DNA of 64,000 nt from Henckelia pumila (taxonomy: Eukaryota; Streptophyta; Magnoliopsida; Lamiales; Gesneriaceae), in NCBI RefSeq assembly GCF_033568475.1, contig NC_133121.1, forward strand, positions 136,556,375 to 136,620,374, written 5' to 3'. Every line of letters starts with the position of its first letter. Within the stretch, counting starts at the first letter, position 1. The translations under genes and the position numbers were made by a program. This document shows, in pieces, positions 3,507-44,800 of this stretch. A model generated the notes under the pieces. The model ran no database searches. It saw only the letters and a list, made by a program, of their open reading frames with translations, and was not told the DNA's origin.

Positions 3507-5515
3507 TCAACCCCAGGCCATGGAGCACGCATAATTAACCACTAATTTACCATCAAAACCAAAATTCTGAAATGCAAAGATGATTGTTAAAGACAAATAA
3601 GCAAAATAATATCTGCATAACTCTATTTCTCAAAAGTTGGGAGTTATAATAGGACAAGGTTAGAATAAAACTTGCAATGTCCTAAACTCATAGGATCCGA
3701 ACCATTAGGAAATTAAAACTCGACCTTCTTTTCAAGGCATATCCTCAAAATTAATAAAAGCTCCACATAGATAAACAAAGGATAATTCGGCTAAGTCGAA
3801 TCAACATAACTCCAGAACTACGGCACAAACAGCAGATCCCATAAAAAAATGACTCATAAGATTATAGACTTACATTATATAGATCGATGACCAACTCATC
3901 TGGATTTGGCGAGAAGGCGCTGTTCACATACACAAACTACCAAAAAAAAGAGGAAATTTAGAACATTTCGAATATGACTTAAATTTCATGACCATTTTCA
4001 AATGCATAAAATCACTTGCCAAAGTTTCCCTGTGAAGTTGACGACGAAGAAAATCAATCACTTTTACAAACTTATCAGCCCCAGCAATCTGCATTTCAGT
4101 AAAATTCAACTCACTGCATAGAAACATAAAATTGAATCTCGAGACAAGAAAATTCTCTTTCCTGAGAATTTCAAATAAACAAAACTTTGATTTCAAATGA
4201 ACAAAACTTTTTTATAGCGCCCCAAGGTTATCGAAAGTTTGTAAGAAATAAATGTTGAACTGTGATATTTCCCAGTGTTTTCATAACCGGACCGGTAATC
4301 GAACCGGTCTACATGGAAAAAACGGTCCAACCGGTCGGACCGTTTTAACCGGACGATCGAACCGGAAAACCGTTTATATAATTTAATATAATAAATAATA
4401 TATTTTAAATTTTAAAAACTCAAAAATTATGTAAATAGACAAAAAAATATATATTTAACATATTTTGAAAACTAAATAAACATTTAAATATATTCAAAAT
4501 ATCAATTATAATTATAAATTATTTAAATAATAAATTATCTGATTTTAAAAAAACAATAATTATTAAAATAAATTTTTAAATGAAGTAAAAATTCTAAATA
4601 ATAATGTATATATATATATATAAATAATAAATTTAAAGTTTTAAAAATAAAAAAATCTTAAATTTTCAAAAAAAAAAAAAAAAAAATTCGAAAAACCGGT
4701 TCAACCGGTTCTTGAACGGTCCAACCGGTTCTTGACCGGTTTTGACCGGTTGGACCGATTTTCCGGTTTTTGGAGTCGGTCCGGACCGGAGAACCGACCG
4801 GTTCCCGGTCGAACCGGCCGGTCCGGTCCGGTTCCAAAAACATTGATATTTCCCATTATCAATTATCTATTAAAGTAAAAAGAAATCAGGTAAATTACTT
4901 GGGTATGAATATTGATGATAGAATAAATCATTTTGGCTCTTGCATTGTGACATTGAAGTAATAGTCATTTAATTTTTGGTACATGTTATTTCAGTAATGA
5001 ATAAAACATGTTTTAACTGAATCTGTAAGTGGAACGAAGGATGAGTTTGTCAGCTAAGATCACACTCTTTTTACTTGTCATTCGTATTAGTTTAACCATT
5101 CTGATATGAACCTGAACCAGTCTAGATTGGATCCTCAGGTTCCATCAAATTCGAACACAAAGAAGAAGAATTTAAACCCAGAAACAAGCTCCAATCATCA
5201 CTCACTCTCTATCAGAGATAAAAACCAGTAAGTCATGCAAAAAATTTATCGAATGCAAGAAAAACAAAAAAAAAACCTTGAATTTAGCTTGTTTGAGGAT
5301 TGGAGCGTCACCGGTTGCTCTTAGGTGAACTACCACTGCATCAAAATCAATATGAACTGATAATATGGAGGGAGAATGGGAGAGAAATTATCTACCATGA
5401 TCGGATTATTAACAAATTAATTGGAAAAAGTTAACATTCAAACTATAAATAAATAAAAAAAAACAAAAATTTTGCAAATTGGAAGAAACCAACCTTTACG
5501 GGTCTCCGACGTCAT
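3507..5515 (-). CDS. ATG12: Ubiquitin-like autophagy protein ATG12
   Basis: Five coding exons: 5515-5494, 5335-5277, 4088-4020, 3936-3874 and 3566-3507, giving 90 residues and a TGA stop. ATG12 is a ubiquitin-fold modifier conjugated to ATG5 through its C-terminal glycine; the conjugate drives ATG8 lipidation in autophagy. Visible hallmarks are [16 protein letters not shown] near the N-terminus, [14 protein letters not shown] in the middle, [14 protein letters not shown], and the conserved tail NYACSMAWG ending in the conjugating Gly90. Arabidopsis ATG12 proteins are a few residues longer at the N-terminus. All phases join cleanly. The donor after exon 3 is GC (TTG|GCAAGT), so intron 3 is predicted as GC-AG. 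Intron 2 (1188 nt) carries a fold-back element. An LTR-like repeat begins 6 nt upstream of the ATG, so the native leader is either displaced or replaced. Confidence 0.93.
4275..4843. mobile_element. Fold-back/MITE-like DNA element in ATG12 intron 2
   Basis: A 569-bp element whose ends are inverted: the left reads GTGTTTTCATAACCGGACCGG-like sequence and the right reads CCGGTCCGGTTCCAAAAACAT. It is flanked by identical 12-bp direct repeats, TGATATTTCCCA, at 4263-4274 and 4844-4855, which look like a target-site duplication. Both arms are dense in CCGGT/ACCGG motifs (about 4288-4375 and 4695-4840) around an AT-rich core. It has no coding capacity. The duplication length fits Mutator-type insertion (9-12 bp) better than hAT (8 bp), but the superfamily is inferred. 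Confidence 0.7.
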
Positions 5516-22056: not shown

Positions 22057-24086
22057 TCAGACAAGCTCGATATAGGCCATGGGTGCATTGTCCCCTCGTC
22101 TGGGTAGAGTTCGGATTATCCTTGTATACCCTCCCTCTCGTTCACTGTATCTCTCCGGAACCTCCGCAAACAAAGCATGAACAATTTGTTTTTCGTAGAT
22201 GAAGCCAAGGGCTTGCCTTCTCTTGTGTAGAGAACCGTCCTTTGCCAGAGTGATCATTTTGTCGACGTATTTTCTCACTGCACTAGCCCTGGCTCTTGTT
22301 GTTTTTATACGGCCATGTTTCAGAAGTTGAGTTGTCAAGCCTCGTAAAAGAGCACGACGCTGGTCAGGGGGGCGGTTAAGTTTTGGCACCCTCCTCCCAT
22401 GTCTCATGGCGGAGACTCGTCCACCATTGTCAATCACGGTGAAGGAATGGTTAAAATTTGTAGAATCTGCAGAAGTACAACTCATTACATGAATTAGAGA
22501 ACACAGAAAAAAAAAATGTCATGGTAGAATTTGGGCACCATCAATGAGAAAGGTTCTCTCTCAAGGTACAGATCTAGACAAAACATTGACATTATAGAAT
22601 TTTGGCACCATCAAGAACGATTATTTAGATTTGACTAGTTTGGGCATAAATATTAAAAAACAAAACAAAAACAATCAGAATGCTGACCAGAGCAAGACTA
22701 TAGATTTCGATATAAAATGCAGCTTAACACTATACTCAGAGGGTAACGGCTTTGCAAAGTTAAAGCAAAATTTTCAGAATTCACCCATCACGATGTCTTG
22801 GAAAATAAAAAAAAAGTCAAATTTTAATGGTTTACTGCCACTCTTGTGAAAGACCCATAATTAACAAAAGGCAAAATTCTTCTTCAACTACAATGATGCT
22901 TTGAACAAATGCTCTCTTCGATTAAAATTCATTAAAAAAAGGAAGGAGAATTGATGCTGAAACATGAAGGATAATACGTCACTGGTTCACACAAAGTGCT
23001 GCAAATTTAAGTCTATCTCAACACTATCTATTCTTCCTGCTTCCATATCCCCAAGAGCTAAAACTCAGCTAAATATTTCCTGAACCACTTTCCCATTAGG
23101 TCCATAACATAGATATAGAACAAGAAGAAAAAACGACAGAGCTAAAATACCAAGCCTTCTTCAAACAACGTGAAATGGAGGGCTCTCACAGCATAGAGAC
23201 AGGAAGTTAAAGGGACAAATTGCAGTACATAAACCATCAATTACCAAACCAGAGAACCTCCAATGAAAGCAGTGAATTGCATGGCCATTCCCAAAGTCTA
23301 AATCCCAGAAGGATTGATATTGCACTCAACAATCACATTAACACACTAACAAGCACATAGGAGACAAACATATCTTAAGGTTTTTCAAAAGTGGTGCTGC
23401 TAAATATGATATCTGAATTTACGAAATAAATACATGGGCAGATTGTGGAAAAGAACCCGGTCATAACATCATTGATCCAATCTACCTAGCAAACAACATA
23501 TACTGATCAAATATTCCAGATTAGTTGCTAATTTCTTAATAAAATTTCAACTTCAATCCCACACTTCCAACGTGTTTGAGTTTTAACCTCAACAACAAAT
23601 AAAAGGAGGGGGGAGATTTCATTCTCTTAGTTGCACAACGTACACTTGAATCAATAGCATATTTCAACACAACTCTGCCCATTCTGCACCGGCTTTTGGT
23701 ATGAAAATGTATCAAAAACTAAAAACTACAACTATTAGTAAACTTTGTCATCCAATCCCAAGTCTTAGCATGACTGAACATCAAGAATTGCGACTACTGA
23801 CCAAAGAATTTCAATGAGAAAGAACAAAGAGATTCGCAAAAATCACTAGTTCAAACCCAAAACTACAAAAGAACGTAAATGCGGTACCTTGGGAAGAGAG
23901 GAGTGGGTGCAAAGGGGCCAGACCCACAAAAGAGTTTAGAGGTCTCGGGGCGGTTCTGGGCTTGGATAACCCGAGGCGAGAAGGGGTGGGCCCGTTTGGA
24001 AATAAAACGGAAGGGCCCGAAGAAGAGGCGTGAACAGAAGGTAGTGCAGCCCGAAGAGAACAGAGATTCCAGGTACAAGACGCCAT
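22057..24086 (-). CDS. RPL17: Chloroplast 50S ribosomal protein L17
   Basis: Two exons: 24086-23888 and 22466-22057, giving 202 residues. The second exon carries a full bacterial-type L17 domain from about residue 87 ([18 protein letters not shown]) through [20 protein letters not shown] and [19 protein letters not shown] to [12 protein letters not shown] at the end. The first 66 residues are Ser/Pro/Arg-rich with few acidic residues, typical of a chloroplast transit peptide, and resemble Arabidopsis At3g54210 ([15 protein letters not shown]). bL17 binds domain-level 23S rRNA near the tunnel exit of the large subunit. The single 1.4-kb intron splits the transit peptide from the mature protein. 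A GC-rich exon 1 sits in an AT-rich region, and its promoter faces FHIT across a 1.8-kb spacer. Confidence 0.95.
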
Positions 24087-25921: not shown

Positions 25922-28294
25922 ATGTTAAAGCTGTCGCCTTTGTTCTCTTCCCTTAAATTCATCACACCATTTCTACATTTACGACACCTCTCCACACCTC
26001 CGAGGTTTTCCCTTCATTCTACGGCTGCCACTCTCACCAGGGTTCCCTCTAATCTCACCAGAGCTTCCTCTTCTTTCTTGCAACCGCCTACTGAGGCATG
26101 TGTTGAGCTTTGACTTTTCTTCTAATTACTGGAATGATTGTGTTTGATTGTTGTCTTGTTGATCTTTCTGTCGACTATTTTGATGCCCAGATGGGTTCTG
26201 AGAGTTACATGTTTGGCCCATACAAAATCGATGCAAGAGAAGTGTTCTACTCGACTCAGCTTTCATATGCTTTGGTCAATCTCCGTCCTCTTGTTCCTGG
26301 TATGCAAGTTTCATCTTTTGGTATTTGCGAAGTTTAGATGATGTGAATGTTCTTTAGTACCCGATCGAAGTGAAAACAAAATTGAATTTTAAGTTCTCCC
26401 AGTAGTCGGGGTCTAAGTTTGTTGTCTCTCTTGTTTTATTTGCTAGTGTTTGATGGATAGTTAGATAATATAACTGCTGCTTTGGCATCATGTCTCTCTA
26501 CTTTTATTTTTTCAAAACAAGAATAATTCCCTTCGAGTCGGGGGCAGGAGCGTTAATTCTACCATGTTCGTAAATGTTTTCTGTTTAGGATCATAATGAG
26601 CTAAAATCATCGGGTCAATGGTGAAAAAATGGGAAAGAATAAATTTTATGTGGTCTGGAGTCTGGGCTGTAGCATCCATCATTGACATTTGGGTTAGCTT
26701 ATTCCGTTTTCTGTTTCTTGACATTGCAGGTCATATCCTCTCGGCTTTCCATATTTGAATAATGCTTCGTGGTAGAGTTGAGCTTGTAGTGCCATACACA
26801 GATTTACAGGGTAGAAATATGTGGAATAAATCGATCTCATTGATCTGATGAGACGATGAATTGTTTCTTTGTTACTTCGCCATTTTGTCATCTTGAATTA
26901 ACAGCAAAATCCTGATTGGTTCTTGAAATGTGTTAGTTCAAGGGGTTGCTGCTAGCTTAGGAAGTTTGTGGTTTATCAAAATATGCCTCAGACATCATAG
27001 CACAATCATGTTTAGATTCACCTTCTAATTTTCTTTCAGTTCCCTTAAGATTTCTTGAACTCTGCATTGTATATCAGACCATGTAACCCATTAAAATATA
27101 ATTAGATTATACAATATAGCAACCCCAGGGTTGTGTTTCCTTATTTGGTTGACTTAACACAACATACACGTGCTTGTCTGCCCGAGGCGTGAAGTTAAAC
27201 GCTTTCTTGATCTTAGTGCTGATGAGACCAGTGATCTATGGCTTACAGCACAGAAGGTGGGGCGCCAACTTGAGTCCTACCACAATACATCTTCACTTAC
27301 ATTTGCAATCCAAGTAAGATCACGGATTATTTTTTTGAGGGCGGTCATTTGTTATTTTTTCAGTCTTCGTGTTTCTTCATCTGTTATGTATTAATTGAAT
27401 CGAGTAATTTTCCAATAAACCGTCTTGTCAATTACCTCCAAACGCTGACATCATGTAGTGAAATAAACCAAGTAATAGTACTTCTATTTGTTATCATGGC
27501 ACCTACATGATCTGACCTGCAAAAGGTTACCAATATGATAGGAACTATATGTTGTTTGATGCATCTTCGGTTGAAATTTTTGAGATGACATTGTTGGCAT
27601 TTTGAGGGCATGTAAAGCATGCATGAACACAGCCACATGGCCCACAACCTACTGCCACTCCCGTAATTTATTTTAAAGAACTAAATTCTCTCAAGATTTT
27701 TCCCCTCTTCCCTTGTTTTTACTAAGGTGATACTCACTCACATGCACACAAAAACAATCCCAAGAAAAAGAAACAAAGAAATAAATCACATCGATATTCA
27801 TTATGAGATTCAATGTTGATATGTTTATATTTTTTTGGTGAAATTGACAATATTTTACGGACATTTTTTTGCGTATGTAGTAATTTTATCATGATTATAT
27901 ACATGTTCTTGTGATGAACTGTAATTTATGAAAGATTCGCCTTTCTGTAATAGCTATCTCTGCTCTTTGACTGTTACTGTCTCAATTTTTATTGTCATCC
28001 TAGGATGGACCTCAGGCTGGACAGACTGTTCCACATGTTCATATTCACATACTCCCCCGCAAAAGTGGTGATTTTGAAAAAAACGATGAGATCTACGATG
28101 CTGTGAGACACAATAATGCTTATAATTTTATTCATTTGCAACTGGTTTTTGTTTCTTGCTGCTAACCCGTTGTGCAGATTGATTTGAAGGAGAAGGAGTT
28201 GACCCAGAAGCTTGATCTTGATAAAGAGAGGAAAGACAGAAGCGTAGCAGAAATGGCCGACGAGGCAGATGAATACAGAAAGCTTTTTCTGTAA
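25922..28294 (+). CDS. FHIT: FHIT diadenosine triphosphate/APS hydrolase
   Basis: Predicted exons: 25922-26095, 26191-26299, a 3-nt exon 26730-26732, 27168-27313, 28004-28102 and 28178-28294, giving 215 residues. FHIT (Arabidopsis At5g58240) is a histidine-triad enzyme that cleaves Ap3A and, in plants, adenylylsulfate. The HIT motif is HVHIH, with histidines at 155, 157 (catalytic by alignment to human His96) and 159. Other hallmarks are [37 protein letters not shown] and [11 protein letters not shown]. The joined set is open throughout. Exon 1 supplies a 58-residue Arg/Ser/Thr-rich, organelle-type leader and needs a GC donor (GAG|GCATGT); without it, translation could start at the ATG at 26191. 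The intron preceding exon 4 is AT-AC with U12 signals. The last codon lies in a good GT donor context (CT|GTAAGTAT), so a further exon is possible. Confidence 0.88.
26730..26732 (+). other. Predicted 3-nt microexon of FHIT (GTC)
   Basis: Exon 2 ends CCTG before a GT donor. The next good acceptor, TTGACATTGCAG, is followed by GTC and at once by ATATCCTC, a U12-type donor. The downstream exon resumes ACGTGCTTGTC. Only CCTG+GTC+ACGTG rebuilds the family-conserved Pro-Gly-His-Val-Leu-Val. Skipping GTC keeps frame but turns Gly-His into Asp. Confidence 0.6.
26733..27167 (+). other. Predicted U12-type AT-AC intron in FHIT
   Basis: A 435-nt intron starting ATATCCTC (consensus ATATCCTT) and ending ATAC. 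TGACTTAAC, close to the U12 branch consensus TTCCTTAAC, places the branch adenosine (27157) about 10 nt before the 3' splice site. No AG dinucleotide is available at the required junction, so an ordinary GT-AG intron cannot end here. Confidence 0.7.
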
Positions 28295-28885: not shown

Positions 28886-30369
28886 TCAGTGACCGTGTAA
28901 AAGGTCCTCTGGTTCCACTTCCACCCCTGTTCGTCTTTTGATGGATGCACACGAATAATCCACGGGCAATTTGCATTTGTTCTGCAAGTCTAAAAACCTC
29001 TGAATATCAAAGTTGTGCTTCTTTATGAGCTTCCTCTGCCTTGAGAGGAAGAGTCTTTTCAGCAGATCTTGGTAACTCGGATCTCTTGATGTTACCAGAA
29101 AATAAGTATAGCCTATTATAATTCCAGCGGTGGTAGTGAAAAATGCAATTGGCTCCATCACGTCCCAAGAAAATTCCCAGAATGTGAGGCGAAAGAAAAA
29201 TCCCACCTGCACCACAGCAAGCCCCAATCCAGTCCACAATATGCGGCGCACTTGCTTGTGTGCTAGCATGTCGATTTCTTCCTTCTTCTCCTGCAGTTTC
29301 TTGAGCTCATCCTTACATGGGTCGTCCTCGGGTAAAAGAGCAAGAGGAACTGCCCTCCGAACCAGATCAACCACCTGAAGAGATGCACATTGAATTGAAA
29401 GAAAAATGATGCTATGCTTTCAGTATTTATAACCAACCAGAAAATTTACACAAAACACATTGCTATTCAACTGCATCGAGATTCTTAATGATGGCAACAC
29501 ACAATCGTAACTGGATGGTGTATCGTAATCTCTTTTTTAAAAATGTACTTTCTAAGATCTGCTTAACCAAAAGCTTTCTGATTTTTGGTTCTTCTGGCAT
29601 TCAAACAGAGAACGGCCTTCTTCGGTTAGCATGAAAAAGTGTAAGATGAATGTTTTTATTTCATCCTGATATGATTGTTCACTATTGATCAAACAAACAA
29701 CTAAAATAAATACTTGGTCATTGCAATCTAGAATTCAAAGCATCAAACAGTCCCTTTGTCATCTAACATCAGAAGCACAAGCTCAACTATTCTTTCCCCA
29801 CTTTAACCAACATTCAACTGTAGGAATCCCAAAGCCTAAATCAAGATCATCCCCAGTTCACAAAACCTTTTGTAAATCATTCCCTATTATTGTTATTCAG
29901 CACCCAATTCACATAAAAGTATAACATTATAGATAAATAAAGAATGTGAATCCGATACCTTCTCGGGATGGAGATAAACTTTGTCCCGGAAGAGCAAAAC
30001 GACGCCGGCCTCATCCAAAACCCGAGCGAACGCGGCGGCTTCATCCGCCGACTTGGCTACACCCAAGCTCTCACAGGCGCGCAACAGCTCTCTGTAGGTG
30101 ATCACCTCCTTGTTCTCCATACCAAGCTTCTCCTTCAACGACTCCACATTCACCAGCCTCATCAGCCTCTTCGCCTCCGCATAAGTCATCGTAGTCTCAC
30201 CACCACAGTTGTTCTCATCTACACTACCGCCGCCGCCGCCCACGGCGGAGCTACAGAATCGATAAAACGATGAACCCATCACTCGGGAAACGGGTCTGGG
30301 CCTGGAGCCCCGGATGGCTGAATCAAACGCCCGTTTCAGCAGATTCGAGCCGGTAGTTGTTCTCCACAT
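28886..30369 (-). CDS. MCU: Mitochondrial calcium uniporter (MCU) pore protein
   Basis: Two exons: 30369-29959 and 29374-28886, giving 299 residues. This is a plant MCU-domain protein of the inner mitochondrial membrane, the pore of calcium uptake into the matrix. Residues 1-45 are rich in Arg/Ser ([21 protein letters not shown]) and fit a mitochondrial presequence. The C-terminal domain starts at about 137, has a coiled coil ([15 protein letters not shown]), a first membrane helix ([17 protein letters not shown]), the selectivity-filter motif WDVMEP at 207-212, and a second helix ([19 protein letters not shown]). The filter has Val where most family members have Ile (WDIMEP), a conservative change. 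The start is the ATG at 30369; the frame upstream lacks another ATG. The gene is convergent with FHIT (590 bp between stops). Confidence 0.93.
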
Positions 30370-30569
30370 GTTGAAATTCACTATACGATTTGGGGAGTGG
30401 GTGGTGTTAATCTTTCATTGAAAAAAATGGCTAAAATAAAGAGTGGGTGATTGCTAGATTCTGAGGTAGGCCATTGATGAATCGTTGAAAAACAACAAAT
30501 CTTGGAAGAAAAAGGTCAGATCTTTTGGGAAGCTACAAAAACTCAAAAAAGTTCAGTACATAAAGCAAG

Positions 30570-41836: not shown

Positions 41837-44800
41837 ATGGCTCCACGGGGAAGAAAACAATCTCGAAACCTACTGTCCCTTGAAGCTGACCGATCGAGGA
41901 AGACCCCCAACCAACAAATGCCTCCGACCAAGGAAAAATTAGGTTTGTACTTATTGTGTTATATTCGTCATATTTTTGTGCAAATTTTGTGATGATATTT
42001 TTGTTTGTGTCAATTTAATTTGTTTAACGCTATTTGTTTCGTTGTCATCCTTTTTTAATTGTGTTTGTTTTCTTGAAATTTTTTGTTTCTGATTTTGATG
42101 TGACTAACTGATTTTGATTCAAATTATACTGGTTTTGAAGCATTATATTTTGATAAAATGAATGAAATAGAGTATTTGAACTAGTTGGATAGCAATATAT
42201 TTGGTAATATGAAATATTTTTTCGAAAAGGATTCCACTTCACTGTAATTTGAAGTTTGTGTTAGTTTTTCTTCAAATTATGTTGCGGTTTCAAACATTGC
42301 GTTCGATATTATGTGTTGTTTGGACGAAGTTAAGAATTTTATGATTTCTACTGGAATTAGTTGTTTTAGTGATATTGTTTTAATTTTTTTATGCAGATAT
42401 GGTTGAAGATGAAAATTGTATTGACGAAAACGAGCGAAATGGGTCGATTGGAAAGGATGTAATGTCACGCTGTTCTTCAACCTATTTTAGAAAAGTAATG
42501 AACAAGCTAGAACCGAAACTTAGTGAGAAGCAATTGGACAGGATAAAAAGTACGCCTTTCTGCAAATGGTTGAATATGCCCAAACTCTCAATATATCGCA
42601 CTAGAGTAGACGTTGTATTGAAGAGATTTGACAGTTACTCCTCATCTTTCTTTATTGGGAAGGATATTATCGTCCCTTTCATATCATTTGAGTTCTCCCT
42701 CGTACTTGGTCTGCCACATGCAGGCCCGCAGGTTGACCTAGATCTCAGAACACAATCAAACTTTTTATCACGATATTTTTCAGGGAAACTTTGCAATGCC
42801 ACGAGGAAGAAAATTTCTGAGAATCTCTTGTTATTAGCTGAATGAAATGATGACTTGCAGCTAGATGATTTTATCAGAATGTTTATCTTGTTTGCATTCA
42901 ATTGCATAGTATTTCCATTGAGTACCTATATGACACCTCGGTTTGTGTTCTCTTATATTGATGATTTCTCGAACTTTTTCGAGTACTCATGGGGAGACGC
43001 TGCATATAGATTTCTGTGTGATAAAATAGCAACACATATTGTTGAGCCTGATGGAACGGTTGCAGGAACTATTTGGATGGTTGCGTTGTTGGGATGATGG
43101 TCAGTTTGTATTATGTTTTCTAAATAAGATTTTATCATTTTTTGTATCATATGATTTATATTTTTGTTCATCTAGGCTTGGTTTTACGAAAAATTCCCTT
43201 CCCTAGGAGTATTATTTGGTTCTTTACGTACATTTCCCCGATTGTTTAAGTGGTGTGAGAGCAAGATACCATTGAATGTTGAAGCTGCGGATGCTCTACT
43301 GAAAAAGATTACGCGTACTAAGGTATTTTATTTTAAGCTTAATTTGTAGTTTTTCAGATGCGACATTTCACTTTTATTTGTGAATAGGTGTTGAGAATAA
43401 CTCCATTTGGTGAGGAAATATAGATTTTTGGTGAGAGCCATAGAAATGAACGGGTAAATTATTTAATGTCAGAAAATGTATTATATGATTACAATTAAGA
43501 ATTTATATTGATTTAAATGAGTTAATTTTTTAGGTTTCATCTAAAATAAAAGAGGAAGAAACGACGTGTAGAATACAGAGGTTGGAGAAAACTGTGGAGG
43601 ATCAACTCCATGAGATTTAAAGGCTTAAAGAATCATGCCAAACAAATAGAATCATTAAGAAAGAAATCGGGGCTAGTTTGGCTGATGGTGAGGCGGTTGA
43701 GAAGAAAAATGATGGCAAGAATGTTCCTATTGTAGATGAATTCAAAGATTTGACAAATACGAAGGTGGATATGATGAAAGCTGGAATATTAATGTTGTTG
43801 CTGATTTCAAAGGCGATGGTGCTTCTTTCTCTAAGTTGAATTTTGAAAATAAGATTATTGAGGATGCTTCTTTGAGAGAGGTTGTGGATGAACGCAACAG
43901 TGAAAGTGCTATCACAGACTCCGAAGAAGAAAACGTCAGTAATCTTATATCTTCGATTGTCAAGAATGTAATGACAAGAACTGGTCGTGTGAAAAAGAGA
44001 AAAACAGATATGTTTGTGACTCCTCCGAGTTCCACTCCAAGACATAAAACAAAGTCTGTAATGCGAGACAGAGACTTTACCATAATCAGTGACGAGGTAC
44101 CATAATTTTTTTAAAAAAGATTCTAGTATTTCATTTTTTGATTTTTTTTTCTCGAAGGAAAGCAAAGGCACAAATGAATCTGGTTATGAAGATGAGTCGG
44201 CCCTCGATATATACAAAGGCCGAGAATATTTCTGTGGTAGCATAGATGTCTCGAGTGATGATCCCAAAATTATTATGGATTATCTAACGCAAGAAAAAAA
44301 TATGGTACGGCTCGTATGATATCTTTAATTGATTTAATTTTTTTTTATATAATCATGTTCTTGTTTATCTAGTGGCACTGTGTGGGAAGGAGAAAGATTC
44401 CCAATTTTTGGAGATCAATTGTGTCATTTGCTATTTGGGAAAAAAGTCAGAGGTGATATCATCAATTGTTATATGCAAATTGTAAGTGGATATAGTCGGA
44501 AAAATGGTTTTGACATACTTTGCATGGATACAACAGTACAGGTATACGTTTTTGTAGACTTTGAATGATTTTTTTTTCATGTATGGTTAATAATTAGTAA
44601 CTTATGATATTCAGGATGAGGTGTTGAGTGCGTTAGAAAGGTCAAACAAAAAGCGAATGTTGAAAGATGATGATTATCTTCATTTTTTGTCACAATTGAC
44701 AAAAGATTTGAGGAAACAACTGGAGGAAGTAAATAAAAACTCAATGGATCGGTGCAGATTTTTATTGTTTCCAATGAATAGAAATGACCATTGGTTCTTG

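Follow-up and report, generated by a model that had tools for sequence, protein, structure and literature searches.

Plants carry microexons of only 1–15 nt, for example in AP2, invertase, APC11 and VPS55 (PMC8831610; MEPDB, PMC12409088), and 124 of them have been recorded in Arabidopsis (PMC8831610). The splicing machinery cannot assemble on both ends of such an exon simultaneously, and the introns flanking plant microexons are likely removed consecutively (PMC8831610). The survey that reports this, and its predictor, admit only GT-AG or GC-AG introns (PMC8831610). Hence, a microexon flanked by a U12-type AT-AC intron could not be detected there. The main text of that paper mentions neither FHIT nor U12, AT-AC or the minor spliceosome.

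U12-type introns make up less than 0.5% of introns (PMC3584512). Their 5' splice site has the consensus ATATCCTT and their branch point the consensus TCCTTAAC (PMC2426677); U12 scoring matrices are described in PMC7367187. The optimal branch distance is 11–13 nt and a distinct polypyrimidine tract is absent (PMC3584512). Microexons and minor introns are treated separately in PMC4667643, and human FHIT is among the test genes of PMC3358663. Among the matches listed in our literature search, which covered mostly papers outside subscription journals, there was no case of a U12-flanked microexon or of a U12 intron in FHIT. If intron class and microexon status are independent, 124 microexons and a U12 share below 0.5% lead to an expectation of about one U12-flanked microexon per genome, or fewer. 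Such an exon is therefore rare, but not implausible.

Here we describe a candidate. The window, that is the whole 64,000-nt stretch of Henckelia pumila DNA that was analysed, contains a gene in which the three bases GTC very probably form an exon of their own, placed between a major-spliceosome GT-AG intron and a minor-spliceosome AT-AC intron and normally included in the message. This reading is based on the genomic letters and their translation. The features are collected in Table 1.

Table 1. Predicted features of the FHIT gene and its two introns around GTC (positions in the window).
Feature	Position	Strand	Basis
FHIT gene, whole (most likely)	26191-28294	+	157 aa, frame uninterrupted from start to stop codon
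FHIT coding exon, conservative start ATG 26191, end ...CTT GTT CCT G	26191..26299	+	translation; PDB and Pfam matches
U2-type intron, 430 nt, GTATGC...TTGACATTGCAG	26300..26729	+	sequence; GT-AG
3-nt microexon GTC (very probable), which closes the Gly37 codon and supplies base 1 of His38	26730-26732	+	sole motif-keeping parse with two introns and a U12 donor in the ranges enumerated
Putative U12-type AT-AC intron, 435 nt	26733..27167	+	ATATCCTC, branch motif, AC end
Putative U12 5' splice site ATATCCTC	26733-26740	+	1/8 mismatch to ATATCCTT
Putative U12 branch-point motif TGACTTAAC	27150-27158	+	last 8 bases with 2/8 mismatches to TCCTTAAC
FHIT coding exon, 146 nt, opening ACGTGCTTGTC	27168..27313	+	sequence
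FHIT coding exon with histidine triad HVHIH	28004..28102	+	sequence; PDB match
Final FHIT coding exon, including stop	28178..28294	+	sequence

The five coding exons of Table 1 join into a 157-residue product that carries the motif PGHVLVCP. This product matches the PDB entries 9uch (E = 5.6e-45) and 1fhi, a FHIT entry (E = 3.7e-43). It scores 94.2 bits against the Pfam HIT family PF01230, for which the cut-off is 21.5 bits. Leaving out GTC turns Pro-Gly-His-Val into Pro-Asp-Val and thereby lowers the score to 78.5 bits; the three bases add 15.7 bits. Gly-His-Val is present in all five PDB alignments among the matches listed (of 14 hits). Two NCBIfam models also match, both far under their curated cut-offs. 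The gene with the three-base exon is most likely a plant FHIT, and open frames beside it, judged by eye, likewise point to a plant; the Arabidopsis counterpart is, we assume, At5g58240.

Upstream of the conservative start there is a further open frame (25922-26190) that begins with the ATG at 25922, and by eye its start resembles an organelle targeting peptide. It could be joined in frame to FHIT via a GC-AG intron at 26096-26190 (TGAG/GCATGT...CCCAG/ATGG), and three further candidate donors likewise preserve the frame. The FHIT protein may have a longer, targeted N-terminal form. On the minus strand, two long open frames downstream of FHIT (28886-30414) resemble a mitochondrial calcium uniporter by eye, and one at 22057-22518 resembles a bacterial-type ribosomal protein L17, again by eye.

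The left intron begins at CCTG/GTATGC (26300) and ends at TTGACATTGCAG/GTC, with its AG at 26728-26729. The acceptor is decent, but some other AGs close by are richer in pyrimidines: its pyrimidine fraction of 0.73 is about the fourth highest (tied) among 43 AGs.

The right intron appears to be U12-type, a putative substrate of the minor spliceosome. We scored its signals against the consensus strings ATATCCTT and TCCTTAAC (PMC2426677) instead of position matrices. Its 5' splice site, its branch motif with the distance to the intron end, and its unmixed AT-AC ends all agree with a U12 intron: the AT is at 26733-26734, and the intron closes ...CATAC/ACGTG with the AC at 27166-27167. The last eight bases of the branch motif are GACTTAAC. 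Counted back from the final intron base, its two A's stand at 11 and 10 nt, which falls in the span of about 10–15 nt taken as the criterion for a U12 branch point and is at or just under the published optimum (PMC3584512). Within the last 50 nt of the intron GACTTAAC is the best match to the branch consensus, tied at two mismatches with TCCTTATT at 27138, which lacks the AAC. The splice signals around GTC are therefore good but not perfect, given one mismatch in the donor, two in the branch motif and a left acceptor that ranks about fourth.

The joins from 26299 to GTC and from GTC to 27168 rebuild the PGHVLV motif, and the predicted message across both junctions reads CCTGGTCACGTG. Omitting GTC gives PDVLVCP instead of PGHVLVCP and leaves the frame intact. 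Much of this had been proposed in an earlier note on this DNA, and every stretch of letters that it quoted is found where it placed it. Its identification of FHIT is borne out by the 1fhi and PF01230 matches, its U2-type left intron by the GT-AG ends and the length of 430 nt, and its U12-type AT-AC right intron by ATATCCTC, TGACTTAAC and the AC end. The translation agrees with its claim that skipping GTC would stay in frame and exchange Gly-His for Asp (PDVLV). Its view that the exon consists of GTC alone also holds in the enumerated ranges, as follows.

We consider it unlikely that a single intron, ordinary or non-canonical, spans about 26300-27167 and that GTC and the signals beside it are coincidental. 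The coding sequence itself offers such a reading, since CCTGGT and CACGTG joined at 26301/27167 would give Pro-Gly-His-Val without GTC. However, an intron cut in this way would start with AT and finish with TA, and a GT-AC intron from 26300 to 27167 leads to PDVLV. We enumerated single introns with the upstream exon ending at 26260-26419 and the downstream exon starting at 26800-27189, allowing GT-AG, GC-AG, AT-AC, AT-AG and GT-AC ends. In these ranges 31 introns leave the frame open, none of which (0/31) preserves PGHVLVCP. With two introns, a middle exon of 1–60 nt, GT/GC-AG ends on the left, GT/GC-AG or AT-AC ends on the right, an upstream exon ending at 26290-26329 and a downstream exon starting at 27140-27179, two parses keep the motif. 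The parse with GTC is the only one of them that has a U12 donor.

Random introns never gave the full set of signals either. Of 40,000 random introns from a first-order model, each given a terminal GT and AC, 7 had a U12-like donor after an AG-bounded, motif-restoring exon and 209 had a CTTRAC branch motif 4–20 nt from the end; restoring exon, donor and branch motif occurred together in 0/40,000. When restoration of the motif was not required, 1,088 of the 40,000 had an open-frame exon with a donor, and 7 had the branch motif as well. A second control of 20,000 random introns, built to the composition of the entire window, gave a donor with a restoring exon twice, a branch motif 146 times, an AC end 1,036 times and all three in 0/20,000. 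The donor motif RTATCCTY alone is not enriched in the window (13 matches vs 9.2 expected, both strands), and for 5 of the 13 donors, including the one at 26733, a partner made up of a branch motif and an AC lies no more than 6 kb away. Because the donor motif is common and partners are frequent, the strength of the case comes from the coupling of the signals to the coding junction. Elsewhere in the window, at 42313-42667 on the minus strand, a U12-like donor ATATCCTTC and a branch motif TTCTTAAC occur with AC ends 350-355 nt away, possibly by chance.

The frame survives when GTC is skipped, so a sizeable share of messages could in principle skip it through a GT-AC splice and encode a FHIT variant with Asp in place of Gly-His. 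We regard this as distinctly improbable. The skip would replace the conserved Gly-His. It would also have to pair a U2 GT donor with an AC acceptor of the U12 class, which should make it rare. Even among U12 introns, ends that mix the two types (GT-AC or AT-AG) are described as disfavoured (PMC3584512); that statement covers mixed ends inside U12 introns, and we extend it to the pairing of a U2 donor and an acceptor of the U12 class. If the two are not readily joined, GTC would be difficult to skip. Matters differ for a microexon flanked by GT-AG introns on both sides, as its outer sites are compatible and skipping would always compete with inclusion. For GTC, failed splicing would instead produce retained introns, or a skip of GTC together with the next exon (149 nt, a frameshift), and no clean skip of GTC. 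Intron retention leads to stops at codon 46 or 49.

A middle exon that is shifted or longer is very improbable. The second motif-keeping parse moves the right intron by two bases to GTCAT/ATCCTCTCG, with the AC at 27168-27169; this five-base exon preserves Gly-His-Val and has AT-AC ends, but the donor ATCCTCTCG is without the U12 consensus. A 60-nt exon (26673-26732) shares the U12 donor of the GTC parse and keeps the frame open without keeping the motif whole. It would add 19 residues between Pro36 and Gly-His, and there are none at this place in the five PDB relatives among the matches listed. That CAG/GTC is a recursive, zero-length splice point within one long U2 intron is close to negligible: GTC does start with GT, so that a join of 26299 to 26730 restores G/GT, but no usable AG precedes CACGTG, and all three open parses with an AG end rely on 27187, at the cost of PGHVLV.

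If GTC is an exon between two introns of different class, their removal would be sequential, as simultaneous binding would place U2AF/U2 on the left acceptor three bases from U11 on the right donor. Exon definition across GTC would be impossible for either intron, so that recognition would have to span the intron itself or come from the side facing away from GTC. Vertebrate spliceosomes assist each other across exons via U11-59K and U2AF (PMC8034651), a bridge for which three bases probably leave no room. Removing the U2 intron first would create CCTGGTC/ATATCC, an ordinary minor-intron donor. Removing the U12 intron first would create CAG/GTCACGTG, an ordinary 149-nt exon behind a U2 acceptor. 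Since both orders give second substrates that look normal, we infer that either would be workable.

The sequential splicing suggested in the earlier note is a well-founded inference and consistent with the plant microexon literature (PMC8831610). The same note had the U2 intron removed first, which as stated lacks support. For 16 of 69 Arabidopsis microexons intermediates with only the downstream intron removed were found, and none with only the upstream intron removed; the reverse holds for 4/69. Both kinds occur for 49/69, and 32 of these 49 have more downstream reads (PMC8831610). Judged by 16/69 vs 4/69, the precedent therefore leans towards the downstream intron first, which here would be the U12 intron. 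U12 introns are removed more slowly (PMC3584512), which argues for the U2 intron first, opposite to the microexon precedent.

The two introns may differ in age. Residue 38 (His) of this FHIT aligns without gaps with residue 35 of 1fhi, and Gln86 aligns with Gln83. Human FHIT presumably has coding junctions at c.103/104, behind base 1 of codon 35, and at c.249/250; we take these to match the U12 intron and the following intron (27314) here. If these human junctions are right, the U12 position predates the split of plants and animals, and the newcomer is the U2 intron that lies three bases upstream of it. It is plausible that the U2 intron was gained beside an old minor-intron donor. Human and Arabidopsis have 20 U12 positions in common in 133 alignments (PMC2426677), which would fit an old U12 position. 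Against this, later work finds that the conservation of minor introns is slightly lower than that of major ones (PMC10639083).

We rejected a tandem duplication as the origin of either intron: among repeats of at least 14 nt none runs across the intron ends, and the two weak direct repeats that occur are internal to the introns flanking GTC. We found no relative among the 9 pattern-matching stretches in viral contigs. Genome contigs contained 82 stretches and one relative, in a bacterial MAG, which is uninformative for intron positions. This relative, at 4001-4255 of the Actinomycetota MAG contig L001, is a HIT protein that is 42% identical (best segment) and covers FHIT residues 26-109.

It is possible, if rather doubtful, that the mixing of intron classes locks microexons into messages more generally, that plants hold a hidden set of such exons missed by GT/GC-AG surveys, and that a U2 intron gained beside an ancient minor donor is one way in which they originate. 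AT-AC-bounded microexons are excluded by the filters of PMC8831610, and gene models at such microexons may therefore err by one or two residues. If the reading of GTC is true, the gene illustrates how the message can retain an exon that is too small to be recognised by itself. If confirmed, the locus would be a natural test of two spliceosomes that share three RNA bases; it would test whether exon bridging between spliceosomes is dispensable and whether class mismatch enforces inclusion.

GTC resembles the conserved plant microexons in being an ultra-short internal coding exon within a conserved motif, and probably also in the consecutive removal of its flanking introns. With 3 nt and a preserved frame it falls within their range of length and phase (1–15 nt, internal, coding). 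It differs in its right intron: the microexons of PMC8831610 have two GT/GC-AG introns by filter, and the AT-AC intron puts GTC outside the cluster definition used there. The right intron in turn resembles U12 AT-AC introns of plants and animals in donor, branch motif, spacing and AC end (PMC2426677; PMC3584512). Unlike in usual U12 AT-AC introns, the upstream exon has only 3 nt, which leaves too little length for exon bridging. U2/U12 twintrons such as that of prospero (PMC3564746) likewise bring two intron classes to nearly one coding position. Their introns are alternatives in one place, whereas those of FHIT are tandem and non-overlapping in the gene model, and both have to be removed. Recursive splice sites (PMC13149111) share the stepwise removal through an AG/GT point. 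In contrast to them, FHIT would keep three bases, and the second step would be carried out by the other machinery.
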